Source of the DNA: Erythrobacter sanguineus
GTDB taxonomy: Bacteria; Pseudomonadota; Alphaproteobacteria; Sphingomonadales; Sphingomonadaceae
NCBI RefSeq assembly: GCF_900143235.1
Contig: NZ_FRDF01000010.1
Span: forward strand, 62,001-126,000
Length of the DNA stretch: 64,000 nucleotides
Direction: 5' to 3'
Shown here: positions 13,532 through 62,765 of the stretch, one piece after another
Layout of the letters: the number at the start of each line of letters is the position of its first letter
Numbering within the stretch: position 1 is the first letter of the stretch
Program-made: the position numbers and the translations under genes
Notes under the pieces: generated by a model
What the model was told of the DNA's origin: nothing
Seen by the model: the letters and a program-made list of their open reading frames with translations, nothing else
Databases searched by the model: none

Positions 13532-13568
13532 ACCAATGCTCGATGAGTCAACCTCATCGAGCATTGGT
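13532..13568. repeat. Perfect 16-bp inverted repeat with 5-base loop
   Basis: ACCAATGCTCGATGAG (13532-13547), a five-base loop, then its exact reverse complement (13553-13568). It lies in the 200-base gap between the NTF2-like gene and the 3' end of the M50 peptidase gene. It could terminate the M50 transcript, but no T-run follows on either strand. It could also be an operator or the trace of a small mobile element. Confidence 0.8.
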
Positions 13569-13618
13569 ATACAGCATTTTCGATCCGGGTCGGGTCATCC
13601 GGAGCCTCGGAAAGCGTT

Positions 13619-14392
13619 CTAGTCGCGCCGGAACTGCAGCACGTTGGCGGGGGGCTTTGCCGGCGGGCGCAGACGGTGTTCAGCGAGCGCATATTTCAGC
13701 GCACCGCCCACGATCAGCGCCGAAACCAGCAGGATCGCCGTGGCCCAGAACCAGTGCGGCAGGCCGAGCACTGCGGCGATCTGGCCGGTATCGGACAGCA
13801 CCGTCTGCCCCTCGATCATCGCTTCCTCGGTGAACAGATAGTGGAAATCGCGCAGCATGCTCATCGCGGCGAGCACGCCGAGGAATTGCAGGGTGAACCG
13901 CACAAGCCCCGGCTGCGCGCGCCATGCGACCAACGCCAGCAAGGCCGCAACCAGCGGCAGCACCGCATAGCCGACTGGCGAACGCACCCAGATGACCACG
14001 CTGGCGATAATCGTCCCTGCCACCAGCCACAGCGCCGGACGCCACAGCCGCGGATGTGCGCTGGCAAGAATCAGCAGCGCCCCGGCGATGCACGGCGCCA
14101 GCGGACCGCCTGCCGCGATCGCAGCAAAGGTGGTCGCGGTGGCATCGGCAGCCAAGCGGCTTTCGGCCACGCCTGATCCGCTGGCGAAAATCATCAGCCG
14201 ATCAAAGCTCTGCCCCATTGCCAGCGCGGTCAGGCCGTGGCCCATTTCGTGGAACCAGGTGGTGAGGATCACGAAGGGATAGATCAGGTAATTGCCGAAA
14301 GGCAGCGCGGGCAGCATCACCACCACAAGGCTCGCCAGCACCAGCCGCCCAGCTTGTTCAGCCTGACTGCCGGGCCGGGTGAGCGAGCGCAT
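13619..14392 (-). CDS. M50-family membrane metallopeptidase
   Basis: A 257-residue polytopic membrane protein with the zinc motif HEMGH at residues 48-52 in the second hydrophobic segment, as in the M50B-like group. About six further hydrophobic segments follow. The usual downstream third zinc ligand is not obvious in a quick reading, so catalysis is inferred from the HEXXH motif. It starts seven bases after the AI-2E-type transporter stop, pointing to a two-gene operon. The substrate is unknown. Confidence 0.82.
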   Translation of the reverse strand: MRSLTRPGSQAEQAGRLVLASLVVVMLPALPFGNYLIYPFVILTTWFHEMGHGLTALAMGQSFDRLMIFASGSGVAESRLAADATATTFAAIAAGGPLAPCIAGALLILASAHPRLWRPALWLVAGTIIASVVIWVRSPVGYAVLPLVAALLALVAWRAQPGLVRFTLQFLGVLAAMSMLRDFHYLFTEEAMIEGQTVLSDTGQIAAVLGLPHWFWATAILLVSALIVGGALKYALAEHRLRPPAKPPANVLQFRRD

Positions 14393-50772: not shown

Positions 50773-52500
50773 TTGGGGGCTAACGCAGTGCAGCAGGCTG
50801 GAGCAATCGGGCAGGAAGACCGCGATCCGCGTGTGCCGACCGCGGGTGCTGCTTCGTTGATCGGCACGACCAGTTCGATCACGATCGGGCGGATGTTGTG
50901 GACCCGGGCATTGCCTGGAACCGTGGCGGTCATTGCGGCTTTGACCTTGCCTGAATTCTCGCTTGGCGCAGGAGATCTGGCTGACCGTGGCCCGACGGTG
51001 CAGCCCACCCCGGCGCCTGCGCTGGTGCCTTCGCGGCCAGCAGTGCCGCCGCCCGCTTTCGCACCCATTGCCGAGGGCCGACCGCCCGAAGGTTTGCGCA
51101 ACCTGCTGGGCCCGGTCATTACCCAGCCTGCGCCCCCGGCCAGCGAACCCGTCGCAGAAATCAGGACGCGCGTCGCAATTGTGCCGGACGTGTCCGAGCA
51201 AGTTGATCCTGGCCTTGCAGCCGAGATCGAAGTGGTCACGCCGCCGCCCGCTTCCCGGCCGATCATTGCCGAACCGACGGCCTTTGTCGCACAGGCGCCC
51301 GCTGGGCCAGCGATCCCGGTCGAGACGGTTGCGCTGGCCCGGCGCGAAACTTCGGCTTTAGTCGAACCCGTCCCTGCGGCTTTGGCACCGGAACCTGCGC
51401 AAACGCCTGGGCCGGTCGCTGGCGCGACGGCACAGCGGAGTTTCGGCGGGGCCAAGGGTTCGTTTGTGGCGCTGGCCCCCAGTCTGGCAACCGTGCCTGA
51501 CATGGCGCTGGCGTCCGAGACCGCGATCGTCGCCGCTCCGACTGTTCCTGCAGGCGTTGATGATGCCGCGCCCGGCCGCCGTCCGGCCCTGACTGCGCTT
51601 GCGCCCACATCCGCCGCGCCCGATCAGGCTGGGCAGCAGGCGCGCCCGCAGGAAACGCTCCCCATTGCGGAGCCGCGGATGCTTGCGTCGGCTGGCAACA
51701 CGGTTCCGGCGGGGCTTGGCGCCGCCGTGGCCGTGCCGGCGCCAGCCCGCGCAGCCGGTCCGGCAGCGACGCCGACTGCCGTCTCTGCGCTGGTTGTGGT
51801 GACGCAGGCAGCCGTCCTGCCCGCGCCTGCCCGCAGCTCGGTTGCCGCCGCCCGCAACGCTGACCCTGTTGTATCGAACGGATCGGCTCCGGCCCGCACG
51901 AGATCTGCCGCTCTGACCGCTCCTGCACCCAAGGCGCCGGTCGCGGCCCTTGCTGCGCGCCTGCCAGCGGCCACCCGGGCTGCTGCCGGCACACCCGCTC
52001 CGGCGCGGCCTGCTGCGCCTGCCTCTGCGCCGACCCAGGCAGGGCCCGCGCAGGCCAATTCCGCTGCCACTGTTGCGCCGCTTCCGCGTACAAAGCCGCA
52101 GCAATCCGCGGCCGGATTGGGCAAGTCCGATGCGTTCCAGCTCGACATCAGGGCGCAGCTTGTCACCCGGGTTGATGGCATGTCCGCCGGCAAAGTCGAT
52201 TTCCAGCAGACTGATGCCGGTCTGATGGTGCGGCTCGGGTCGATCGTTGAACTGCTGGGCGACCGGTATGACAATGCGCAGATTGCGCGCATCCGGGCTT
52301 CGGCGGCAAGCGACCTCTACCTCTCGCTGGCGCAATTGCAGGCGCGGGGCATCCCGATCAGCTATGATCCGGTCTATGATGAATTCAATGTCGGGATGGT
52401 CGACACGCGCCCCAAGGCGGCGCGCAAAGTGCATATGGACCAGATCAGCACGCCTGAACGCGGGCTGGGCAGCACCGGGGTCAATCAGGTCCGCCGTTGA
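50773..52500 (+). CDS. Large Pro/Ala-rich protein with conserved C-terminal domain, beside curli genes
   Basis: A frame of 575 codons. A hydrophobic signal or anchor (MLWTRALPGTVAVIAALTL, from ATG 50893) is followed by about 370 residues of Pro/Ala-rich, probably unstructured linker, then a folded-looking C-terminus: DAFQLDIRAQLVTRVDGMSAGKVDFQQ, LMVRLGSIVELLGDRYD, YLSLAQLQARGIPISYDPVYDEFNVGM. The start is uncertain: TTG 50773, GTG 50788 or ATG 50893. It converges on the CsgH-like gene four bases apart. I do not recognise the domain. A periplasm-spanning or cell-surface role linked to the amyloid locus is inference. Confidence 0.75.
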   Translation: MGANAVQQAGAIGQEDRDPRVPTAGAASLIGTTSSITIGRMLWTRALPGTVAVIAALTLPEFSLGAGDLADRGPTVQPTPAPALVPSRPAVPPPAFAPIAEGRPPEGLRNLLGPVITQPAPPASEPVAEIRTRVAIVPDVSEQVDPGLAAEIEVVTPPPASRPIIAEPTAFVAQAPAGPAIPVETVALARRETSALVEPVPAALAPEPAQTPGPVAGATAQRSFGGAKGSFVALAPSLATVPDMALASETAIVAAPTVPAGVDDAAPGRRPALTALAPTSAAPDQAGQQARPQETLPIAEPRMLASAGNTVPAGLGAAVAVPAPARAAGPAATPTAVSALVVVTQAAVLPAPARSSVAAARNADPVVSNGSAPARTRSAALTAPAPKAPVAALAARLPAATRAAAGTPAPARPAAPASAPTQAGPAQANSAATVAPLPRTKPQQSAAGLGKSDAFQLDIRAQLVTRVDGMSAGKVDFQQTDAGLMVRLGSIVELLGDRYDNAQIARIRASAASDLYLSLAQLQARGIPISYDPVYDEFNVGMVDTRPKAARKVHMDQISTPERGLGSTGVNQVRR

Positions 52501-52503
52501 TCC

Positions 52504-52860
52504 CTAACCCTCGGCGTCGCAACTGCCTTCAAGGATTTCATAAGGCTCGCGGCCTTCCTCTTCGGCCAGCAGCCGCACGCACCAGCTTTTGCCGGGAGTG
52601 GTCCTTACCGTCGACAGCACGGTTCGCGCATGGGCCGCGAGCGTGGTCTTGCCGCGATGACGCGAGCTTGACTGGCCGGTGACCTCAAGCAGGTAGCTGA
52701 CCTGTTGCGTCCGCGGAGAATCGCCGATCAGCTGTATCTCCAGGGTGTCGCCCTGCTGGCGAACCTCGAGCGTAAGGGCATCGGGAAGGTCACTCATGGC
52801 AGGCACCGTGCTGGAGGCGAACGGGAGGAGCAGCGCAGCGAGGCAGGAGGGCAGGATCAT
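52504..52860 (-). CDS. CsgH-like curli assembly protein
   Basis: A 118-residue protein with signal peptide (MILPSCLAALLLPFASSTVPAM) and a beta-sandwich-like domain: LTLEVRQQGDTLEIQLIGDS, VSYLLEVTGQSSSRHRGKTTLAA. This layout fits the CsgC/CsgH-type periplasmic chaperones that block premature amyloid formation; alphaproteobacteria use the CsgH form. Two cysteines near the C-terminus (WCVRLL, GSCDAEG) may pair. It is last in the curli-type operon; its ATG overlaps the stop of the preceding gene. Confidence 0.7.
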   Translation of the reverse strand: MILPSCLAALLLPFASSTVPAMSDLPDALTLEVRQQGDTLEIQLIGDSPRTQQVSYLLEVTGQSSSRHRGKTTLAAHARTVLSTVRTTPGKSWCVRLLAEEEGREPYEILEGSCDAEG

Positions 52861-53630
52861 GGTCCGCTGCCCCCCGCTCCGCCGAGTTGCTGGACGATGG
52901 CATTGATCAAGGCGTCGGTTTCCGAACCAAGCCCAAGCCCGGTCTGGTCTTCCTCGTTCTCCGGCCTGTCCTGCTGCGGCGGAGGCGCGAGCGCAATCGA
53001 GGCGATCGCCTGATTGCTGAAATTATCCGAAGATGCGACCGTCACCCGTGACAGGCGCTCGATCACCCGCTCGACCGTGGGCAGGCCATTGTCATCAAGC
53101 CCGCCGCGCAGCAGCCGTTCCTCTGCCGAAAGCGCCTGCTCGGGTTTCGACGAGAATTCCGCCGAACGGGTTTCGATCCGGGTCCGGCACAGCGCGATAA
53201 TCGCCGCCACTGCTGGTGGATTGTCGCAGATGTCAGTGCCTTTGATCGCTTGCAGCAGCACGCGGCGTTCGCCTGGTGTCAGTTGGGCCAGCGTGGCATC
53301 AAGATCGGCTTTCGACAACTGCGCCATGCGCGATCCGCTCTCGCCCATGGCGGTAATCTGCGATGGCGGTGTATCGTTGCTGTCCAGCGGGCCGATCTGG
53401 TCGCCATCGGCCTGCATCATGCTCGGGCGGGGCCGCGATGACGGACGATCTTCGAGATAGGCCTTGCCCGCCGCATCGGCCCGGCTAGACCTTTCCTCAG
53501 GCGCGCCGATCTGCATGGCTTCGGTCTTGCTGGCCGTATCAGAGGCATCCTGTGCCGCGCCTGTGGCTGGCAGCATCAGCCCGGCTGTAACCAGAATGAT
53601 GATTTTGGAAAAAGGCGGGGCAATCCGCAT
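52857..53630 (-). CDS. Exported protein of unknown function in curli-type operon
   Basis: A 257-residue protein with signal peptide (MRIAPPFSKIIILVTAGLML..GAAQD). A low-complexity N-terminal third is followed by a helical domain: LSKADLDATLAQLTPGERRVLLQAIKGTDIC, NPPAVAAIIALCRTRIETRSAEF, LSAEERLLRGGLD. The two cysteines, in TDIC and ALCR, may form a disulfide. It lies between the CsgB-like and CsgH-like genes and overlaps the latter by four bases. It does not resemble CsgE, which this locus lacks. Function unknown. Confidence 0.78.
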   Translation of the reverse strand: MRIAPPFSKIIILVTAGLMLPATGAAQDASDTASKTEAMQIGAPEERSSRADAAGKAYLEDRPSSRPRPSMMQADGDQIGPLDSNDTPPSQITAMGESGSRMAQLSKADLDATLAQLTPGERRVLLQAIKGTDICDNPPAVAAIIALCRTRIETRSAEFSSKPEQALSAEERLLRGGLDDNGLPTVERVIERLSRVTVASSDNFSNQAIASIALAPPPQQDRPENEEDQTGLGLGSETDALINAIVQQLGGAGGSGP

Positions 53631-53641
53631 CCCTGTGGTCA

Positions 53642-54292
53642 CTAGCCTCCGGGTCCGGACGGCGGCGGCGCGAAGGTGGCGCCCGAATTGCTCTGCGTGA
53701 CCTGAATGGTGCTGCCCCCGGTCTGGACGATCTGCAGATCGGCAAGGCCATCGCCGATCTGGTTCCATTCGAGCCGGTTGCCGCTGTCGATCTGGCCTGC
53801 GGTCATCAGGTTATTGTCACCCTCCTGCGTCAACAGCGCCTGATTGTCGTTGCCATCCTGCGCGAGAATGATGCTGTTGCCATTGCCGCGCTGCAGGATC
53901 GTGGCACTGGTTTCGCCAATCGCGGATTGCTCACGCTGGAGCAGGATAGCGTTATTGCCATTGCCTTCCTGCGCAAGCGCGAGGTCGGTGCTGCCTTCGC
54001 CATCCTGAACGGCGTTGGCGGTGTTGTCATCCCCATCCTGCACGATCTGTGCGCGATGCGGGGCGCCGCCTTCCTGCGTGAGATCAACCTGGTTGTTTGC
54101 GCCGTCCTGCACCACGCGGGCGAGGCTGTCGGCATTGCGCTGGGTAATCTCGGCCCGCGGAGCATCGCCGATCTGGGTGACGAACACGCCGCGTTCGGGC
54201 GAGCTTTGTGCCTGTGCCACCGTGGCTGTCGCCAGCAACGCGCAGGCGGCAAGACCGGTGGCGATGCGGCTGGGAAGAGCGGCGTTCGTCAT
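53642..54292 (-). CDS. CsgB-like minor curlin
   Basis: A 216-residue secreted protein. After the signal peptide (MTNAALPSRIATGLAAC..VAQA), curlin repeats follow: VVQDGANNQVDLTQEGG, IVQDGDDNTANAVQDGEG, ILQRGNGNSIILAQDGNDN, LTQEGDNN. The regularly spaced Gln, Gly and Asn form the beta-solenoid ladder. The C-terminus differs from the major curlins: it breaks the repeat, adds a LEWNQIGDG segment and ends in Gly/Pro. Its smaller size and final position in the curlin series suggest a CsgB-type nucleator. The gene is preceded by a strong GC hairpin (54319-54352). Confidence 0.85.
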   Translation of the reverse strand: MTNAALPSRIATGLAACALLATATVAQAQSSPERGVFVTQIGDAPRAEITQRNADSLARVVQDGANNQVDLTQEGGAPHRAQIVQDGDDNTANAVQDGEGSTDLALAQEGNGNNAILLQREQSAIGETSATILQRGNGNSIILAQDGNDNQALLTQEGDNNLMTAGQIDSGNRLEWNQIGDGLADLQIVQTGGSTIQVTQSNSGATFAPPPSGPGG

Positions 54293-54318
54293 GGTCTGTT
54301 CCTTGTATACGAAAATCG

Positions 54319-54352
54319 CACCCCGGGCGAGCGCAATGTCCCGCCCGGGGTG
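54319..54352 (-). other. Intercistronic hairpin after curlin gene 4
   Basis: CACCCCGGGCG (54319-54329) pairs with CGCCCGGGGTG (54342-54352), a perfect 11-bp stem downstream of the 428-residue curlin gene on its transcript. No U-run follows, so partial termination or mRNA stabilisation is likelier than full stop. Confidence 0.65.
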
Positions 54353-54364
54353 CTGGGTGTAGGC

Positions 54365-55651
54365 TTACATGCCCTGCGTGACGGAGGCGATGTTGCCGTT
54401 GCCGATCTGGTCGACATTGGACAGGTCGCCGTGGCCCGACTGGTTCACCGTTGCCGAGTTGTTGTTGCCGGTCTGCACGATGAAGCTGTCCGCCAGCGAA
54501 CCGCTCTGGGTCACGTCGGCTTCGTTCTCATGACCGTCCTGATCGATCTCGGAGAAATTCCCCGAACCCGACTGGTTGACTTCGGCGAGGTTCCCGGAAG
54601 TCGGCGGCGCGCCCAGCGTGTTGGTCTGGCTGATGTCGCTCTCGTTGTCCGAACCCGACTGGGTGACATTGGCCGTCATTCCGTTGGCAGGGCCTCCGTT
54701 TGCGGGCGTCGGCCCGTCCTGCAGGATCGTGCTGGTGTTGAACGAGCCCGACTGGTCGACATCGGCCACCGCATTGTTAGCGCGGCCGGTCTGCGTCACG
54801 AAGCTGGTCAGATTGTTGCCGATCTGATCGACGCTCACCAGGCCGAAATTGGCGCTCTGCGTGACGGTCGAGGCGTTATCGTCGCCGATCTGGTTGATGC
54901 CCACACTGGCGAGGCCGAGTGGATCGCCAATGTCATTGTCAAAGCCCGGCTGGCTGATGATCGAGCTGTTGCGTTCACCATCCTGAACGACAGCAGCGAA
55001 GTTCGACGAACCGCGCTGTTCGGCGGTCGAGAAGTTTTCCGTGCCGGTCTGGGTGACATTCAGCGTCTGGTCGATGGTCGGGCCACCCGACGGACGACCC
55101 TGGAACGAGTTCGAGGTGTTGCTCTCTCCCGACTGGCTGATGTTGGCGGTCGCCGCATCATTGCGCTGGAGCACGCTGATCGTGTTGTTCTCGCCGGTCT
55201 GGCCGGTGGTCGCCGAATTGCTGTTGCCCGTGTTGAGCGCGGCAATACCCTGCGTGATGGTGGTGGTGTTGCCGCTACCGCTCTGCGATGCGTCGGCGAC
55301 GTTGGCTTCAAGCAGCGAAGCGCCATCGCCGGTCTGGTTGATCGTCACCGAGTTGGCGGTGGTGCCGGGCGTGTCGTTGTCCTGATCGACGCTGGCGGTG
55401 TTGAAGGTGCCGTCCTGATCGACGGTGGCGGTGTTGCCGTTCGCGGCGAAGGCACCGATCGTCTCCTGCGTCACCGTGGCGGCATTGTTGTCGCCGTCCT
55501 GGTCAATATCGGAGTCGTTGAAGCCCGTCTGACCGACCGTCGCCGCATTGGCGTTGCCGGTCTGATCGACGTCGGAGGTGCTCTGGGCATAGGCCGGAGC
55601 GGCGATGGACAGCGCCAGGATCGAGGCGCCGGTAAGGATCATCTTCTTCAT
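54365..55651 (-). CDS. Giant curlin-repeat protein (428 aa)
   Basis: A secreted amyloid-type protein with signal peptide (MKKMILTGASILALSIAAPA..YAQ). The rest is curlin repeats: DVDQTGNANAATVGQTG, DIDQDGDNNAATVTQE, ISVLQRNDAATANISQSG and many more, ending NGNIASVTQGM. The period is about 11 residues per half repeat; E. coli CsgA has five repeats in 131 mature residues, so this is about three times longer. The ATG used is the sixth codon of the open frame: AAGGAACTTGAA before it serves as ribosome-binding site. The upstream leader matches that of the next curlin gene nearly exactly. Confidence 0.9.
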   Translation of the reverse strand: MKKMILTGASILALSIAAPAYAQSTSDVDQTGNANAATVGQTGFNDSDIDQDGDNNAATVTQETIGAFAANGNTATVDQDGTFNTASVDQDNDTPGTTANSVTINQTGDGASLLEANVADASQSGSGNTTTITQGIAALNTGNSNSATTGQTGENNTISVLQRNDAATANISQSGESNTSNSFQGRPSGGPTIDQTLNVTQTGTENFSTAEQRGSSNFAAVVQDGERNSSIISQPGFDNDIGDPLGLASVGINQIGDDNASTVTQSANFGLVSVDQIGNNLTSFVTQTGRANNAVADVDQSGSFNTSTILQDGPTPANGGPANGMTANVTQSGSDNESDISQTNTLGAPPTSGNLAEVNQSGSGNFSEIDQDGHENEADVTQSGSLADSFIVQTGNNNSATVNQSGHGDLSNVDQIGNGNIASVTQGM

Positions 55652-55734
55652 CTCAAGTTCCTTCATGTTTCAGGTTGCTTGCGAATGAACCGTTTGTTCT
55701 GCGGTCCGGGATCTTGAGGTCCCGGTTGAAAGCA

Positions 55735-55764
55735 TCCGGGCGGGCCCTTGCGAGCCCGCCCGGA
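55735..55764 (-). other. Intercistronic hairpin after curlin gene 3
   Basis: TCCGGGCGGGC (55735-55745) pairs with GCCCGCCCGGA (55754-55764), a perfect 11-bp stem with an eight-base loop, ten bases after the stop of the 551-residue curlin gene on the transcript. Confidence 0.65.
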
Positions 55765-55773
55765 GATGTCAGG

Positions 55774-57429
55774 TCAGAAGCCCTGCGTCACAGTGGCGGT
55801 GTTGCTGTCGCCCGTCTGAGTGACGGACGAGTTGTTGAAGTGGCTCGACTGCGTCACGGTGGCGGAGTTGCCCGCGCCGGTCTGAAGGATGGTCGACAGG
55901 TTGTCGTCACCCGACTGGGTCACCGAGGCCGTGTTGTAGAGGCCGCCATCGCCGTTCTGGGTGATGGTGCTGGTGTTGTCGCTACCGGACTGATCGCTCG
56001 AGGCGGTGTTCAGGGTGCCGTTCTGGGTGATGGTCGATTCGCTGTCGAAGCCGCTCTGCGTGATTGTGGCCGAGCTGAACGACTGGGGGCCAGGGCTGCC
56101 GGGACCGCCATTCTGGTCGATTTTGGCGGTGTTGCCTGACGAACCGGCCAGCTGGCTCACCGTCGCGGTGTCATTGCGAGCGTTCGAATCCTGATTGACA
56201 TAGGCGAAGCTGTCATCGCCCAGCTGATCGATATCGACGCTCGAATTGAGGCCGCCCAGCTGGCTGACAAAGGCAAGGTTGCCATTGCCGCCTTGCAGCA
56301 CGTTGGCATTGAGGCCCGCACCGTCCTGCAGCACGTCGGACTCGTTGTTGTCACCGGACTGGGTGACGATGGCCGTTGCACCCTTGTTGTCCTGATCGAT
56401 GTTCGAGTCGTTGTTGAACCCGCTCTGGAGCACGGTGGCGCTCAGGTTGGAGTCGACGGTGGTCAGACCCTTGTCGTCCTGATCGATGACCGAGTTGTTG
56501 TCATCATTCGTCTGCGTCACGCTTGCGAAGAAGGTGTTCGAGTTCGCGTTGTCGAGCTTCTGGGTGATTTCCGAGGTGTTGGCCCCATCCTGATCGACGA
56601 TCGCATCCATGTTGTTCGAACCCGCGCCATTGGCGGTCTGGGTGATGGTGGAGGTCGCGCCGTTCTGCTGGTCAACGATTGCGTCCAGATCGCCCGTCAT
56701 GTCACCGTTGAGAGTCTGGAACACGTCCGAAGTCGAACCGCCGCTCTGGGTCACACGGGCGAAGGCCGAGGGGTTGAAGCCGCTGGTGTCGGTAGCGGTC
56801 TGGACAATGTTCGAGGTCGAATCGCTCTGGATCACCCGGGCATCCATGTTCTTGCCACCGTTCGAGCCGGTCTGCAGGATGTCGGACGTCGCGCCGCCGG
56901 TCTGCTCCACGATCGCACGCAGACCGCCGGTGTAACCCGGACCATTGGAGTTCTGGGTGACCTCCGAATCGTTGTCGTCGCCGGTTTGCGTGACCGAAGC
57001 GGTCTGATTGAAGCCACCGCCGGCCGCGATCGTCTGATTGATGGTCGATTCGTTGCTGATGCCGTCCTGAACGACGGTCGCATCGGGGTCGAAGCCGGGC
57101 GCACCGAAGGTGCCGCCCTGACCCGGCGCAACGTCAGGATCGACCTGCGTAACGGTCGAGGTGTTGTCGGAGCCCGACTGGGTCACGTCGGCGAGGCTGA
57201 GGAACGAGTCCTGATCGATGGTCGAGCTGTTTCCGGTACCCTCCTGATCGACCAAGGCCGAGTTGCCATCGCCGTTCTGGTCGATGTCCGAGGTGTTGCT
57301 GCCGTTCTGCTCGACGGTGGCAGCGTTGCCGTTGCCGATCTGGTCGACGTCCGAGGTGCTCTGGGCATAGGCCGGAGCGGCGATGGAAAGCGCCAGGATC
57401 GAGGCGCCGGTAAGGATTGTCTTTTTCAT
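55774..57429 (-). CDS. Giant curlin-repeat protein (551 aa)
   Basis: A second major curlin with a signal peptide nearly identical to the 428-residue protein (MKKTILTGASILALSIAAPA) and the same first repeat (STSDVDQIGNGNAATVEQNG). Around 25 repeat pairs follow, some interrupted by short loops (DPDVAPGQGGTFGAPGFDP; SSGNTAKIDQNGGPGSPGPQ). It ends SNTATVTQGF. AAGGAACTTGAA precedes ATG 57429. Near-identical signal and leader sequences with divergent repeats show duplication followed by divergence. Confidence 0.9.
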   Translation of the reverse strand: MKKTILTGASILALSIAAPAYAQSTSDVDQIGNGNAATVEQNGSNTSDIDQNGDGNSALVDQEGTGNSSTIDQDSFLSLADVTQSGSDNTSTVTQVDPDVAPGQGGTFGAPGFDPDATVVQDGISNESTINQTIAAGGGFNQTASVTQTGDDNDSEVTQNSNGPGYTGGLRAIVEQTGGATSDILQTGSNGGKNMDARVIQSDSTSNIVQTATDTSGFNPSAFARVTQSGGSTSDVFQTLNGDMTGDLDAIVDQQNGATSTITQTANGAGSNNMDAIVDQDGANTSEITQKLDNANSNTFFASVTQTNDDNNSVIDQDDKGLTTVDSNLSATVLQSGFNNDSNIDQDNKGATAIVTQSGDNNESDVLQDGAGLNANVLQGGNGNLAFVSQLGGLNSSVDIDQLGDDSFAYVNQDSNARNDTATVSQLAGSSGNTAKIDQNGGPGSPGPQSFSSATITQSGFDSESTITQNGTLNTASSDQSGSDNTSTITQNGDGGLYNTASVTQSGDDNLSTILQTGAGNSATVTQSSHFNNSSVTQTGDSNTATVTQGF

Positions 57430-57514
57430 TTCAAGTTCCTTCATGTTTCAGGTTGGCTTGCGACTTGAACGAATTGTTCTGCGATCCGGGATCTTGAGGC
57501 CCCGGCTGAAATCT

Positions 57515-57541
57515 CCGGGCGGACCAGCGTGGCCCGCCCGG
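57515..57541 (-). other. Intercistronic hairpin after curlin gene 2
   Basis: CCGGGCGG (57515-57522) and CCGCCCGG (57534-57541) form an 8-bp stem in the same relative place as the hairpin at 55735-55764. Confidence 0.5.
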
Positions 57542-57551
57542 CAAGCTTGTG

Positions 57552-59321
57552 TCAGAAGCCCTGCGTGACAGTCACCGAACCGCCGGTGCCGAGCTGATTG
57601 ATGGTCGACATGTTGTTGTCGCTCGTCTGGGTCACGCTCGCGGTGTTGAGCGAACCGCTCTGCAGGATGTCCGAGGTGTTGCCGTTACCGGTCTGCGAGA
57701 CATCCGAGGTGTTGTCGTTGCCTGACTGGGTCAGCAGCGCGGTGTTGAGCGAACCGTCCTGGAATACCTCCGAACCATTGTCGGCGCCCGACTGGTTGAC
57801 GGTGGCGGTATTGGTGGCCCCGGCGATCGAACCGATCTGCTCGATCGTGCTGCCGTTGTTCGGGCCGCTCTGGTTGACGTTGGCCAGACCGGCAAAGCCG
57901 CTCTGCGTTACTTCGGATTCGTTGTCAGCACCCGACTGCGTCACGTTGGCGATGTTGAACTGGTGGGCCAGCCCACCGGTCTGCGTGACCACCGAACTCG
58001 AGCCATCTGACCCCGTCAGCTGGTCGATGAAGGCCGAATTGCTGCGGCCCGACTGGGTGATTTCCGAAGTGGTGTCATTGCCTTCCTGAAACACGTCGGC
58101 CGAGTTGGTGAGACCCGTTTGGCCGATGGTCGACGCATTGTCGTCACCGGTCTGCAGCACATTGATCAGCAGGTTGTTCGAACCGTTTTGCGTCGCCTCG
58201 CTGGCGTTGCCATTGCCGCTTTGGGTGATGGTCGCGGTCGCATATTTGTTCAGCTGGGTCAGGTCCGACGTGTTGTTGTCACCGGTCTGGTTGACAGTCG
58301 CTGTCAGGCCCTCGTCGGCAAAGGCATTGACCCCGCCGAAGTCGCTCTGGCTGACGTTCGAGGTGTTCCCGTCGCCGCGCTGGGTGACAGTCGTCAGGAA
58401 GGTGTTCGAATTGGCCAGCTCGAAGGTCTGGTTGATGGTCGAGGTGTTGTCGCCATCCTGATCGACGATCGCGTCCTGGGTCACCGAAGCGGCGCCATTG
58501 GCCGTCTGGTTGACGGTCGAGGTTGCCCCGTTGCGCTGCAGAACCGAAGCGAACAGGTCGCCGCCGCCCGCGCCGTTGACCGTCTGGTTGACGTTCGAAC
58601 CCGAACCGCCCGCCTGATTGACCACCGCGCGCAGCGACGGGTTGTTCGGCACGGTCGAGGCGTTGCCGGTCTGGATCACGCTTGAGGTTGAATCGTCCTG
58701 CGTCACTTCGGCGCGGAAAGCCTGGGCACGGTTGTTCGCAATCTGGGTCACGAGCGAGTCGGCCCCGTTGCTCTGGTTCACGAAAGCGCGCAGTGTGCCG
58801 GTGAAGCCCGGGCCGTTGGCTTCCTGTGTGATGCTGGAGATGTTGTCGTCACCGTTCTGGTTGTTGTTAGCGACCAGGTTAAAGCTGCCCACCACGTTGG
58901 TCTGGCTGATCGACGAATCGTTCCCGTTGCCCTGCTGATTGATGCGGGCCTCAGGGTCTGCGTCGAGCGGCTGAAGCGTGTCCCTGTCCGATGCGTCGTT
59001 CTGCGTAACGTTGGCGATGTTGTCGTCGCCGTTCTGGACCACGTCGATGAGGCCCTCGATTGAGGTCTGGTCGATGGTCGTAGTGTTGCTGTTGCCGGTC
59101 TGCAGGACGCCTGCAGTCCCGTCAGTGCCGTCCTGCCCGATGGTGACAATGTTGCTGTCACCATCCTGATCAACATCTGACTCATTGCCCGAGCCGTTCT
59201 GGGTGACCGTGGCGCCGTTGCCGTTGCCTGTCTGGTCAATGTCGGAGATATTCTGCGCAAAAGTAGGCGCGGCGATGGCAAGAGCCACCATCGAAACGCC
59301 GGTGATGAGAATGTTCTTCAT
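57552..59321 (-). CDS. Giant curlin-repeat protein (589 aa)
   Basis: The longest of the four. Signal peptide MKNILITGVSMVALAIAAPTF..AQ, then ISDIDQTGNGNGATVTQNGS and repeats throughout, with insertions such as SDRDTLQPLDADPEARINQQ. It ends GTGGSVTVTQGF, sharing the terminal TVTQGF with the 551-residue protein. GAGGAATTGAACC precedes ATG 59321. Expected export: Sec to the periplasm, then through the CsgG pore. Exact repeat count needs alignment. Confidence 0.9.
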   Translation of the reverse strand: MKNILITGVSMVALAIAAPTFAQNISDIDQTGNGNGATVTQNGSGNESDVDQDGDSNIVTIGQDGTDGTAGVLQTGNSNTTTIDQTSIEGLIDVVQNGDDNIANVTQNDASDRDTLQPLDADPEARINQQGNGNDSSISQTNVVGSFNLVANNNQNGDDNISSITQEANGPGFTGTLRAFVNQSNGADSLVTQIANNRAQAFRAEVTQDDSTSSVIQTGNASTVPNNPSLRAVVNQAGGSGSNVNQTVNGAGGGDLFASVLQRNGATSTVNQTANGAASVTQDAIVDQDGDNTSTINQTFELANSNTFLTTVTQRGDGNTSNVSQSDFGGVNAFADEGLTATVNQTGDNNTSDLTQLNKYATATITQSGNGNASEATQNGSNNLLINVLQTGDDNASTIGQTGLTNSADVFQEGNDTTSEITQSGRSNSAFIDQLTGSDGSSSVVTQTGGLAHQFNIANVTQSGADNESEVTQSGFAGLANVNQSGPNNGSTIEQIGSIAGATNTATVNQSGADNGSEVFQDGSLNTALLTQSGNDNTSDVSQTGNGNTSDILQSGSLNTASVTQTSDNNMSTINQLGTGGSVTVTQGF

Positions 59322-59437
59322 GGTTCAATTCCTCAAAGCTGTGCTTTTTTCTGCCGGTCCGGGGTGAGCCCAGCGCCCGCTCACTCACCCGCCCGGCGCG
59401 GAAGAGGGCCCCCAAGGCCCTCTCCGCTATGCGCGCG
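59322..59437 (-). other. Intercistronic spacer with hairpins
   Basis: The 116-base spacer between curlin genes 1 and 2 contains AGAGGGCC/GGCCCTCT around 59403-59425 as a hairpin following the stop of the 491-residue gene, and a T-run (CTTTTTTC on the plus strand, near 59343). Confidence 0.45.
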
Positions 59438-60913
59438 TTACGGTATGTTCTGGCTGACGATGGCGGAGTTGCCGTTGCCGATCTGGGTGACGTCGGACAT
59501 GTCGCCGTTGCCGCCCTGGCTGACATTGGCGATGTTGCTGTTGCCCGACTGGCTGATGATGGACTCGTTGCCGATCCCGCCATCGATCTGCAGCAGCGTG
59601 GCGAGGTTGTTGTCGCCATTCTGCTCGACGGTGGATTCGCCATCGTCGCCGTTCTGGGTGACGTTGGCGGTGTTGCCGTCGCTCGCCGCACCGGTCAGAA
59701 CGAAGAAGTTGCCGTCAGTTCCCTGCAGGATCGACGAACTATTGCCGTTGCCGTTCTGGGTGAGGCTGGCGGTCTGGTTCTCGCCGACCTGGATGATACC
59801 GGCCGGGCCAGCCCGGTTGCCGGAGCTGTTGCCGTCACCGATCTGGGTGATGCTGGCGACCTGGTTGCGGCCATACTGGGCGATCGCGGCTTCGTTGCCG
59901 TTACCCGTCTGGCTGACCGAGGCGCTCTGGTTCTCGTTGAGGACCGGCAGGGTAAAGGGGCCGAAGAGCCCATTGAACTGCTGGCTCGCGGCGTTCTGGG
60001 TTACGGTCGATTCATTGTCGTCGCCCTGCTGGTTGACGGTCACGTCCGAACCGTTGGCGATGCCGGTGACTTCGGAATCGTTCTCGATGCCGTTCTGGGT
60101 GACATCGATCGTCGACGCGCCGGCGATCTGATCAACCACCGAGAGGTTGTCTGTGCCATCCTGGTCGACATCAACCGACGCGAGGCTGGCGGACTGGGTC
60201 ACGTCGCTATCGTTGCGGGTGCCGTTCTGGCTGACGGTGATGGCCGCGCCCGAGCCGGTCTGGTCGATGAACGAGTCATTGTCCTCGCCGTCCTGCGTGA
60301 CCGTCACGCCCGCCAGAGAACCGCTCTGGGTCACGGTTGAGATGTTGGTCTGGCCGTCCTGAATCACCGTCACGGTCGCACCGCTGCCGCTCTGGTCGAC
60401 GAAGGAATCGTTACCTTCCGCAGAACCGTCTGAATTGCTTTGGGTTACCGCCACCGAAGCGAGATTGCCCGACTGTGTCACCGCGCTGTCGTTCTGGTTG
60501 CCGGTCTGGATCACGCTGGTGATGGCCAGGTTCGCGTCCTGGCTGACACCCGAGATGTTGCCGGTGCCGTTCTGGGTGACTTCGACAGCGCTGAAATCGC
60601 CTTCCTGCGTCACGTCGCTGTCGTTGCCTTCGCCTTCCTGCTCGACGTCGGCAGTGTTGTTCGACGAACCCACTACCTGCAGGATGGTCGACGTGTTGGC
60701 ATCACCCGCAGTGCTGATCTGGGTCACGTTGGCAGTATTGTCGCTGCCGTCCTGATCGATGTCGCTGGTGTTGGTGCCCGCCCCGCTCTGATCGACAGTG
60801 GCGGTCTCGGCGACGCCGGTCTGTTCGACATCGGAGGTGTTGGATTGCGCCATGGCAGCCCCTGCAAGCGACAGAGCCAGTACGGATACGCCGGTCTTGA
60901 TGATCGTTTTCAT
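59438..60913 (-). CDS. Giant curlin-repeat protein (491 aa)
   Basis: First of the curlin series in transcription order. Signal peptide MKTIIKTGVSVLALSLAGAA..MAQ, then TSDVEQTGVAETATVDQSGAG, DIDQDGSDNTANVTQ and repeats. A non-repeat insertion, ASQQFNGLFGPFTLPVLNEN, breaks the solenoid around the two-thirds point. It ends SAIVSQNIP rather than TVTQG(F/M), so it is the most divergent of the four. GAGGGAAACGAGCA precedes ATG 60913. The 447-base region upstream probably holds the promoter of the curlin series. Confidence 0.9.
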   Translation of the reverse strand: MKTIIKTGVSVLALSLAGAAMAQSNTSDVEQTGVAETATVDQSGAGTNTSDIDQDGSDNTANVTQISTAGDANTSTILQVVGSSNNTADVEQEGEGNDSDVTQEGDFSAVEVTQNGTGNISGVSQDANLAITSVIQTGNQNDSAVTQSGNLASVAVTQSNSDGSAEGNDSFVDQSGSGATVTVIQDGQTNISTVTQSGSLAGVTVTQDGEDNDSFIDQTGSGAAITVSQNGTRNDSDVTQSASLASVDVDQDGTDNLSVVDQIAGASTIDVTQNGIENDSEVTGIANGSDVTVNQQGDDNESTVTQNAASQQFNGLFGPFTLPVLNENQSASVSQTGNGNEAAIAQYGRNQVASITQIGDGNSSGNRAGPAGIIQVGENQTASLTQNGNGNSSSILQGTDGNFFVLTGAASDGNTANVTQNGDDGESTVEQNGDNNLATLLQIDGGIGNESIISQSGNSNIANVSQGGNGDMSDVTQIGNGNSAIVSQNIP

Positions 60914-61360
60914 TGCTCGTTTCCCTCTATAAACCACTGAAAATAAGATTTTTCGTGGCCTCGCATGCGTTTGTGCGCTGCGGGGTCCATGAAATTCTGG
61001 ATGTGATGAGCTTGCCGCGCCCCCTGAAAAGCGGGGCTGGGAAGGGTGACGCTGCCGCGCTTTCCCGTGTCGCTATAACCCCACGCGGGCGCAGGGCATG
61101 CGCCTTGTCCATGGGACTCGAAGGGTGGGGTAGTAAACCAAGCTCGGTATTCATTGTTGCATCCGCCCATCTGATAGGCGATACCGAGCGTTGGCCACGG
61201 CGCGATGAGACGCCGGGCTACTAGGTGATCGCATACCTTTTCCTCGCGCGCATCGGAGTGGCAGCTCCTTTGCGTGCTTATTTTTTGCGGCCCAACGGCG
61301 CTTTAGGCGCTCTCTGGTTTATCCCGTCCGGCTGGCAGGCCGACCGGAAATTCATTCACT
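60914..61360. other. Intergenic region between csgG and the curlin genes
   Basis: No credible gene. It contains a 9-bp inverted repeat (GCTCGGTAT at 61142-61150 and ATACCGAGC at 61181-61189), and probably the promoter for the curlin series. A plus-strand sigma54-like sequence at 61259-61273 points away from the curlins. Confidence 0.45.
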
Positions 61361-62335
61361 TTACGAACCGTCGCGTTTGCTCTCGTCCCGGTCCGCATCG
61401 ATAATTGTCATCGCGGTCAGCGAGCCTGCGCGCTTGACCGCCTTCTGAATATCACTGGCATCGTAGACACCGTCGCGCTCGGCGCGATAGGCTGCGAGCA
61501 ACTGCTGCGCGGTCGACATGTCCTCAAACCGCCAAAGGTCGAGTTCCACCCCTTCGAGCACCAGGCCATAAACGGCCTTCTCGATCGCCTGCTGCAACGC
61601 CACCTGATCAGGTTCGTTGGAAGTGATCCCCGCCTCTGCCTCAAGCAGTTCGCGGAACGCCACGAATTTGAAGGCGCTTGCCCCCAGCGCCTGGCTGGCA
61701 ATCGTCTTGGAGGTGGTGATGTTGGCCAGCACCTCGCCCGTGCGGACAGATACCGCGCGCAGATAGACTGTTACCGTGTCCTGACGATACTCGGTACGCG
61801 CGCCGATGCCGAGAAAGGCTGCGCCTGCACCGCCCGTTACCGTGTTGGTATCATAACCCACGATCCCGCCTTCCAGCAGCACGCCGGCAAACAGCAATGC
61901 GGGGAGGGCGTTGGGATCAATGTCTTGTTCGCCGAGATAGCGCTTGCGCATCTCGCCAATGATCTGGCGTTCGCGCAGCAGGTTATCCAGCCGTTCGCGC
62001 TCGACCACGGTGAACCAGCTGCGATTGCCTGCGTCCTGCAATGCCTTGACCAGCATCGCACTGGCGCCTTGCGTCACGGCGCGGGACAAGGTCTGGCCAA
62101 CATCGCTCGGTTTGAACTGGCCGGTCTGGTCGGTGAAGCCATAGACTGCAATCGCGACCTGCCGCTGCGGGCCCGGAAGCTGATGCAGCAGATTCTGGGT
62201 CTGGGTCTTCTTCGGGAAATAGGCCAGACTGGTGGCGGTCGCCACCGAGTTGCGTCCGTCCTGCGGCATGCTCATGCAGCCCGTAAGGGCGACAGCGGCC
62301 ATGCCTGCGAAAATCGAGGAAAGCGGGAAACGCAT
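61361..62335 (-). CDS. csgG: CsgG-type outer-membrane curli secretion lipoprotein
   Basis: The secretion pore of the curli system. A lipoprotein signal (MRFPLSSIFAGMAAVALTGC, lipobox LTGC) is followed by the CsgG domain: RQVAIAVYGFTDQTGQFKPS, TQGASAMLVKALQDAG, WFTVVERERLDNLLRERQIIGEMR, LLFAGVLLEGGIVGYDTNTVTGGAGAAFLGIGARTEYRQDTVTVYLRAV and TGEVLANITTSKTI. The 324-residue length is slightly above E. coli CsgG. It forms a nonameric beta-barrel. The gene lies ten bases after csgF. Confidence 0.93.
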   Translation of the reverse strand: MRFPLSSIFAGMAAVALTGCMSMPQDGRNSVATATSLAYFPKKTQTQNLLHQLPGPQRQVAIAVYGFTDQTGQFKPSDVGQTLSRAVTQGASAMLVKALQDAGNRSWFTVVERERLDNLLRERQIIGEMRKRYLGEQDIDPNALPALLFAGVLLEGGIVGYDTNTVTGGAGAAFLGIGARTEYRQDTVTVYLRAVSVRTGEVLANITTSKTIASQALGASAFKFVAFRELLEAEAGITSNEPDQVALQQAIEKAVYGLVLEGVELDLWRFEDMSTAQQLLAAYRAERDGVYDASDIQKAVKRAGSLTAMTIIDADRDESKRDGS

Positions 62336-62345
62336 CAATCTGACC

Positions 62346-62765
62346 TCAATCCACCTCGATGAAGAGCGGCACGACGATGCGGGTTTCCTCACCACTTCCA
62401 TCATTTCGGATGATCAGCGTGACTTCATCAAGCGAGCGAAAGAATTCGATCGTCTGGCCGCCAAAGCTGATGGTGCCCTGTTCCTGTGGGTTGTCACCGA
62501 AGATCGCATCGACGATCTGCGAGGACAGTGCCGAAAGCAGGCGGGACTGGAGCTGTCGGGCGAAGATATCGGCCTGGGAATTGGTCGAAGTCGAGCGCGG
62601 GTCGCGGGTGTTGTTGTTGGCGTTCGCGACACCCAGCACATGGTTCGAATTGAACGGGTTGCCGCCGAAGGTCGGGCTGATCGGACGATGCACCAGATCC
62701 TGTGCCGCGACAGGCGCCGCAGCAACGACCATAGCTGCCATAAGGCAAGCTTTCACAAACGACAT
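62346..62765 (-). CDS. csgF: CsgF-type curli accessory protein
   Basis: A 139-residue protein with signal peptide (MSFVKACLMAAMVVAAAPVAA) and the CsgF N-terminal signature after it: QDLVHRPISPTFGGNPFNSN, which in E. coli inserts into the CsgG pore constriction. The C-terminus ITFGG-like GTISFGGQTIEFFRS is followed by a beta domain. GGGAGGGG precedes ATG 62765. CsgF couples secretion to surface nucleation. First gene of the minus-strand csg series. Confidence 0.93.
   Translation of the reverse strand: MSFVKACLMAAMVVAAAPVAAQDLVHRPISPTFGGNPFNSNHVLGVANANNNTRDPRSTSTNSQADIFARQLQSRLLSALSSQIVDAIFGDNPQEQGTISFGGQTIEFFRSLDEVTLIIRNDGSGEETRIVVPLFIEVD

Follow-up and report, generated by a model that had tools for sequence, protein, structure and literature searches.

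The 64,000-nucleotide stretch of Erythrobacter sanguineus analysed here (NCBI RefSeq assembly GCF_900143235.1, contig NZ_FRDF01000010.1, positions 62,001 to 126,000; hereafter the window, numbered from its first letter) carries a curli (csg) locus. On its minus strand csgF and csgG are followed by a leader RNA, four giant curlin genes (curlins 1 to 4), a small curlin gene, ORF2 and csgH. Probably this is a curli (type VIII secretion) locus of the ordinary alphaproteobacterial kind, joined by an unnamed accessory protein, the product of ORF2, and by a candidate new cis-regulatory RNA that may gate curlin 1. The leader RNA is conserved in sequence and pairing directly before curlin 1, is confined in the searched genomes to those with csg genes and is apparently new to description; giant multi-copy curlins are already known. 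It is the part of the locus most worth following. The RNA and the parts of it discussed below are as follows.

61143..61297, minus strand: conserved structured leader RNA of about 155 nucleotides, candidate cis-regulatory (alignment A4, pair counts, event test, covariance model R1)
61246..61277, minus strand: stem-loop P2, the best supported helix (event test)
61224..61232, minus strand: 5' strand of the long-range helix P4, the proposed open state (pair counts, strand-swap, event test)
61195..61217, minus strand: hairpin P3 (pair counts, strand-swap, event test)
61173..61185, minus strand: shared segment, pairing either with the P4 5' strand or, in P5, with the ribosome-binding site
61161..61168, minus strand: segment resembling a ribosome-binding site, 3' strand of P5
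60927..61154, minus strand: candidate 75-codon leader frame, which opens just behind the RNA and stops 13 nucleotides short of curlin 1

The conserved block was first seen on aligning the gap between csgG and the curlins, and an iterated search then recovered it in most loci. Alignment A4 (30 sequences) was built without structure information and supports P2, P3 and P4. Of its pair cells, 92% are standard, as against 22-51% in slid versions, and change is seen on both sides in 15 of the 27 proposed pairs (4.7 in shuffles, 0/500). Since kinship inflates pair-change counts, changes were placed on a tree in an event test, which gave 18 same-branch double changes in the 27 pairs against 2.9 expected (0/2000), 15 of them keeping the pair. 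P2 accounts for 10 of these, where 0.52 were expected; slid controls had 4-10 double changes and 0-2 kept pairs. In a strand-swap test, which exchanged strands between species, native pairing was better than swapped pairing for P2a, P2b and P3 (0/1000 each), P4 (2/1000) and P5 (0/1000), and two controls were null.

For comparison, 51 csg loci including that of the window were gathered from the family, 47 of them complete. L041 and L047 (cut by contig ends) and L036 and L039 (remnants) were left out of the complete count, and one csgF-bearing genome (G176) lies outside the gathered set. The 47 loci were chosen by csgG, csgF or ORF2 and thus show the make-up of a csg locus, not its frequency. 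Covariance model R1, built from 30 of 37 locus hits with 7 independent, scored at least 37.6 bits at 37 places across 57 sources, with weaker antisense matches to the palindromic stem in addition. Each of the 37 sits in the gap from csgG to a curlin and shares their strand. Among 100 sampled genomes of the genus, any CsgG match was present in 40 and a strong one (at least 195.9 bits) in 36; R1 was detected in 26, one copy each, all among these 36 and in none of the other 64. In the family, 13 of 149 genomes had CsgF and 8 had R1, all CsgF-bearing. In the class, CsgF was matched in 7 of 385 genomes at E<=0.001 (6 of them above the cut-off) and R1 in the window's own genome only. These searches scored 30 (genus), 20 (family) and 7 (class) first-look candidates per genome under stricter filters; as so few were scored, the absences of R1 are weak, above all the 1/385 at class level.

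No Rfam family was found on 61143-61297 at E<=5 or E<=10, nor at the element in six relatives (L040, L056, L030, L063, L057 and L037). A cyclic di-GMP (c-di-GMP) riboswitch, suspected from a motif by eye, was unsupported by Rfam: the c-di-GMP-I-GGC row falls outside the element on the opposite strand, with 19.5 bits against 59. Literature searches, in which subscription journals were largely outside coverage, found among the papers listed no account of a leader RNA of curlin genes. Glycine riboswitch matches were seen near some csg loci, away from the leader RNA (L056 1136-1236, L057 4615-4828 and L063 13796-13903).

The 3' part of the element reads AUCGCC...AGGUGAU or GGCGGAU, with an AUG about 7 nucleotides further on. 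In P5, AUCGCC pairs with the ribosome-binding site, and in P4 the same bases pair with an upstream GCGAUnACC, so that the same 5-6 bases can join either helix at similar predicted energy. Two overlapping candidate helices of which one contains the ribosome-binding site recall translational riboswitches. When each of 27 sequences was constrained to either form, the energies differed by between -7.9 and +5.3 kcal/mol (mean -1.1). P5 is lengthened by bases downstream of the AUG in 15 relatives belonging to the window's clade (33/5000). The AUG after the element starts the first curlin in 12 of the 37 loci, and in L057 a UUG does. In the window's clade the leader frame mostly ends near the start of curlin 1 (+13 nucleotides in the window, -4 in several relatives, +119 in L041). 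In L062 (about 13560-13880) the frame opened by the post-element start has a curlin-like signal peptide but stops early, after 63 residues, as a decayed first curlin would.

We infer that the putative RNA acts at translation. In the mechanism proposed, the structured leader would set the output of the first giant curlin: P5, which is longer in the clade of the window, would mask the ribosome-binding site, and P4, using the same bases, would expose it. The balance between the two may be shifted by a metabolite, a protein, a small RNA or temperature. Once exposed, the site would in the window drive the short leader frame coupled to curlin 1, and in 13 relatives it would drive curlin 1 directly. 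By homology, CsgG would export the four giant curlins and the small curlin, CsgF would aid assembly, and CsgH, perhaps with ORF2, would hold back early aggregation in the periplasm. The boldest form of this proposal, a candidate new class of RNA switch for functional amyloid that responds to a signal and gates the first curlin's ribosome-binding site, with ORF2 as a new secreted assembly factor replacing CsgE, we consider rather unlikely.

Several results weigh against a gating RNA. The event test lends P3 and P4 moderate support only (5 double changes against 1.6 expected, 29/2000, and 3 against 0.78, 67/2000), and P5 shows no excess (1 against 0.80, 1174/2000), with pair counts barely above shuffles. 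Two of six slid controls exceeded their own null (+1: 1/2000; +2: 7/2000), with only 1-2 pairs kept, and the strand-swap test is uncorrected for relatedness. Testing all column pairs for covariation against a tree-based null returned zero significant pairs; the power of this test is low because the leader RNA is highly conserved. The folding stability of the window element is not exceptional (z -1.9). The leader frame exceeds chance expectation only weakly (combined p 0.001), and a second frame is frequently open as well. Finally, the RNA is missing from 10 of the 36 csgG-bearing genus genomes and from 12 of the 47 complete loci, so curli does not need it.

Instead of binding a metabolite, the element may be the target of a protein or small RNA, or be a thermosensor; this is quite possible and falls somewhat short of probable. 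P2 is small for an aptamer, and the element is tied to one operon only, as a dedicated regulator would be. Curli of E. coli are regulated by small RNAs at csgD, which also speaks for such a partner. It is also conceivable, and to our mind on the doubtful side, that the leader is a structured 5' untranslated region which stabilises the message or fixes its translation level without switching, in an otherwise ordinary curli locus. P2 as the sole helix with overwhelming event support, the want of such support for P5 on A4, and related csg loci that manage without the element would all fit this. What it leaves aside is that the ribosome-binding site and start codon belong to the conserved unit, and that one set of bases fits two helices of similar predicted energy.

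It is very improbable that the element is conserved as a promoter or operator site in the DNA or as a coding region. The region does sit upstream of an operon, and relatives of the window keep the frame open from the ATG. Double changes that keep the pair speak against both, and every frame is interrupted by stops, in 24, 26 and 29 of the 30 sequences; together with single-base insertions and deletions separating the elements of relatives, these stops argue against a coding region. On the side of the proteins, it is more improbable still that the extra giant curlins are non-expressed relics. L062, with a truncated frame in the place of the first curlin, and two family genomes with csg remnants only (L036 and L039) could be read in that way. 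Against it, none of the four window frames is broken and all have signal-like leaders, and each giant finds its better matches outside its own locus, in other species, so the copies persist.

The genes of the locus, in a host genome of about 3.0 Mb in 25 contigs, are given below in minus-strand order.

62346..62765, minus strand: csgF, 139 residues, start at 62765 (PF10614, 100.1 bits)
61361..62335, minus strand: csgG, outer-membrane curli export channel, 324 residues (PF03783, 209.3 bits)
59438..60913, minus strand: giant curlin 1, 491 residues (Curlin_rpt, PF07012, E 2.2e-45)
57552..59321, minus strand: giant curlin 2, 589 residues (Curlin_rpt, E 8e-44)
55774..57429, minus strand: giant curlin 3, 551 residues (Curlin_rpt, E 4.6e-44)
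54365..55651, minus strand: giant curlin 4, 428 residues (Curlin_rpt, E 1.4e-48; best match of its model CsgA 8c50)
53642..54292, minus strand: small curlin in CsgB-like position, 216 residues (Curlin_rpt, E 1.7e-14, 6 stretches)
52857..53630, minus strand: ORF2, secreted-looking protein of 257 residues with two invariant cysteines
52504..52860, minus strand: csgH, 118 residues (NCBIfam NF041112, 53.5 bits, cut-off 35)

A first-pass annotation made from the letters alone had placed csgF, csgG, the four giant curlins (491, 589, 551 and 428 residues), the 216-residue curlin and csgH on this strand, and all are where it put them. It had passed over ORF2, the leader RNA, the GC-rich hairpins after the giant curlins and a fifth giant curlin elsewhere in the genome. 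CsgG has a single match in its own genome. The csgH protein gave no match in Pfam, and its start codon overlaps the ORF2 stop. CsgE, which the annotation had not seen, was searched for in the window's own genome and gave no match at E<=1. The available parts of Dueholm 2012 (PMC3521004) describe csgC, csgD and csgE as typically missing in Alphaproteobacteria and CsgD as part of a very large regulator family. As these published Alphaproteobacteria likewise do without CsgE, it is not required for an alphaproteobacterial curli locus.

The annotation had further called a system of four giant curlins at least unusual, which the family does not bear out. All 47 complete loci have csgF and csgG, 44 have ORF2 and 42 have csgH. 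Curlin frames of at least 300 residues before the last curlin number at least two in 44 of the 47 loci, at least three in 29 and at least four in 14, lengths in the relatives being those of stop-to-stop frames and hence slightly too long. The synteny comparison that the annotation had proposed shows a conserved gene order: the sequence last curlin, ORF2, csgH is kept in 38 of the 47, and in the nine exceptions one of ORF2 and csgH is missing or the two are reversed (L032). The claim that four giant curlins are unusual was rejected on this comparison, and the giant multi-curlin layout is the normal state of the family. Print also speaks against the claim, as far as the available parts of two papers go: up to six csgA/B homologues in one genus, with CsgA of up to 529 residues and up to 22 repeats (Dueholm 2012, PMC3521004), and up to 30 copies per genome with 4-62 repeats (Sleutel 2023, PMC10192328).

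In the two remnants, one frame of L036 (1786-2421) matches csgF at its start and ORF2 further along, with csgG and the curlins gone, and L039 (1370-2449) retains a partial csgF, ORF2 and csgH. Together they point to curli having been lost recently.

Profile matches, a solenoid model and the conserved locus support the reading as a curli-type locus in which giant curlins have been duplicated. The hidden Markov model check proposed by the annotation found Curlin_rpt in all five subunits, with E 8e-44 to 1.4e-48 in the four giants. Strand-type glutamines 10-13 residues apart number 24-35 per giant, as against 1.8-3.1 in composition shuffles, and recur chiefly every 11 residues. The structure prediction it had also asked for was made for copy 4, using AlphaFold on a 4-sequence alignment of the window paralogues. 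This giant is modelled as a beta-solenoid of 33 strands, with a mean pLDDT (predicted local distance difference test) of 66.8 and a pTM (predicted template modelling score) of 0.67. Among 95 aligned Protein Data Bank (PDB) chains the top row was 8c50, CsgA of Pontibacter korlensis (Z 39.3, root-mean-square deviation 8.4 over 344 residues, 32% identity), and the next PDB row had Z 17.8.

The near-identical signal peptides and 5' leaders reported for two copies are real and are shared by copies 3 and 4 (signal peptides were assessed by eye). Each giant is nearer to a copy in another species (56-79% identity) than to its best paralogue in the locus (36-47%), so the giant-curlin copies predate these species, even though the leaders of copies 3 and 4 are near-identical. 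The suggestion that the four are distinct fibre subunits is plausible on these identities, as every giant resembles another species' copy more than its own-locus paralogues. The 216-residue protein had been called CsgB-like. It has curlin repeats and a CsgB-like position, and CsgB identity is not assignable with confidence, because CsgA and CsgB are distinguishable in Gammaproteobacteria only, according to the available parts of Dueholm 2012 (PMC3521004).

A fifth giant curlin of 555 residues lies on another contig of the same genome (contig C23, L010 5690-7357, minus strand), away from csg genes and near a ParA-like and a phospholipase-D-like frame (names by eye). Its best matches are curlins from the csg loci of relatives, at about 41% identity.

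ORF2 begins like a signal peptide, its N-terminal half is of low complexity and two of its cysteines are invariant; its closest named relatives are Porphyrobacter and Erythrobacter records, and the genome of Erythrobacter donghaensis carries it. Searched with an ORF2 profile, 246 genomes of the order gave matches in 14; these all belong to the family of the window, and each matched place lies within a csg locus. No significant Pfam, NCBIfam or PDB sequence match was found for ORF2; among 15 members there were single weak, unrelated rows (Enkurin, E 0.088, and NF045560, E 0.014, one member each), and the structure model is of low confidence (pLDDT 54.8). Beyond the family, no ORF2 was recognised in five csgF loci from Alphaproteobacteria (L067-L071). 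The position of the gene suggests a periplasmic or surface assembly factor; a role as a stand-in for CsgE is a guess. ORF2 as a relative of CsgE was rejected, there being no sequence match in Pfam, NCBIfam or the PDB, and the idea of a degenerate curlin, which came from glutamine spacing, was not adopted. Literature searches of the coverage given above found no published account of ORF2. The three complete loci without ORF2 have an unrelated secreted-looking frame in its slot (L034 12491-13033, L065 11563-12168 and L066 2640-3257).

The alphaproteobacterial csgH curli of Dueholm 2012 (PMC3521004) likewise have CsgF, CsgG, several long CsgA/B homologues and an adjacent csgH, and lack csgC, csgD and csgE, as the window's genome lacks a CsgE match; the available parts of that account do not mention an ORF2 protein or a leader RNA. 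The predicted solenoid of curlin 4 resembles the long-repeat CsgA of P. korlensis (8c50; available parts of Sleutel 2023, PMC10192328), a species of another phylum, whereas the window has four paralogues and a small curlin, with a fifth giant elsewhere. For the leader, a precedent is the SAM-II riboswitch of Sinorhizobium metA, a leader RNA from an alphaproteobacterium in which a ribosome-binding site is hidden and a later start codon affected (available parts of PMC9373788). Rfam found no sequence resemblance to it in the window leader, which precedes a structural amyloid gene. For the control and assembly of alphaproteobacterial curli without CsgC, CsgD and CsgE there are now two candidates, the leader RNA and ORF2. 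A dedicated RNA switch for an amyloid, if true, would be new and would offer a handle on fibre production in harmless bacteria.

Each giant curlin is followed by a GC-rich intercistronic hairpin.

59400..59425, minus strand: hairpin after curlin 1
57515..57541, minus strand: hairpin after curlin 2
55735..55764, minus strand: hairpin after curlin 3
54318..54353, minus strand: hairpin after curlin 4

Stretches of 70 nucleotides after stops were compared with single-base shuffles. After giant-curlin stops z was below -2 in 82 of 112 cases (mean z -3.2), as against 1/37 after csgF, 4/35 after the small curlin, 0/33 after ORF2 and 2/35 after csgH; csgG was intermediate (12/37). In the window no clear U-run follows the hairpins, and they are for that reason read as probably protecting the upstream message. 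A Twister-P5 row at 55735-55785, on the hairpin after curlin 3, was below threshold and on the opposite strand and was taken as chance.

A plus-strand gene converges on csgH.

50773..52500, plus strand: convergent neighbour, frame of 575 residues with a conserved C-terminal domain

The product is rich in proline and alanine, and a search of Pfam and NCBIfam gave no match. Its C-terminal domain of about 125 residues is present in 22 of the 47 complete csg loci, mostly in a convergent gene directly after csgH.

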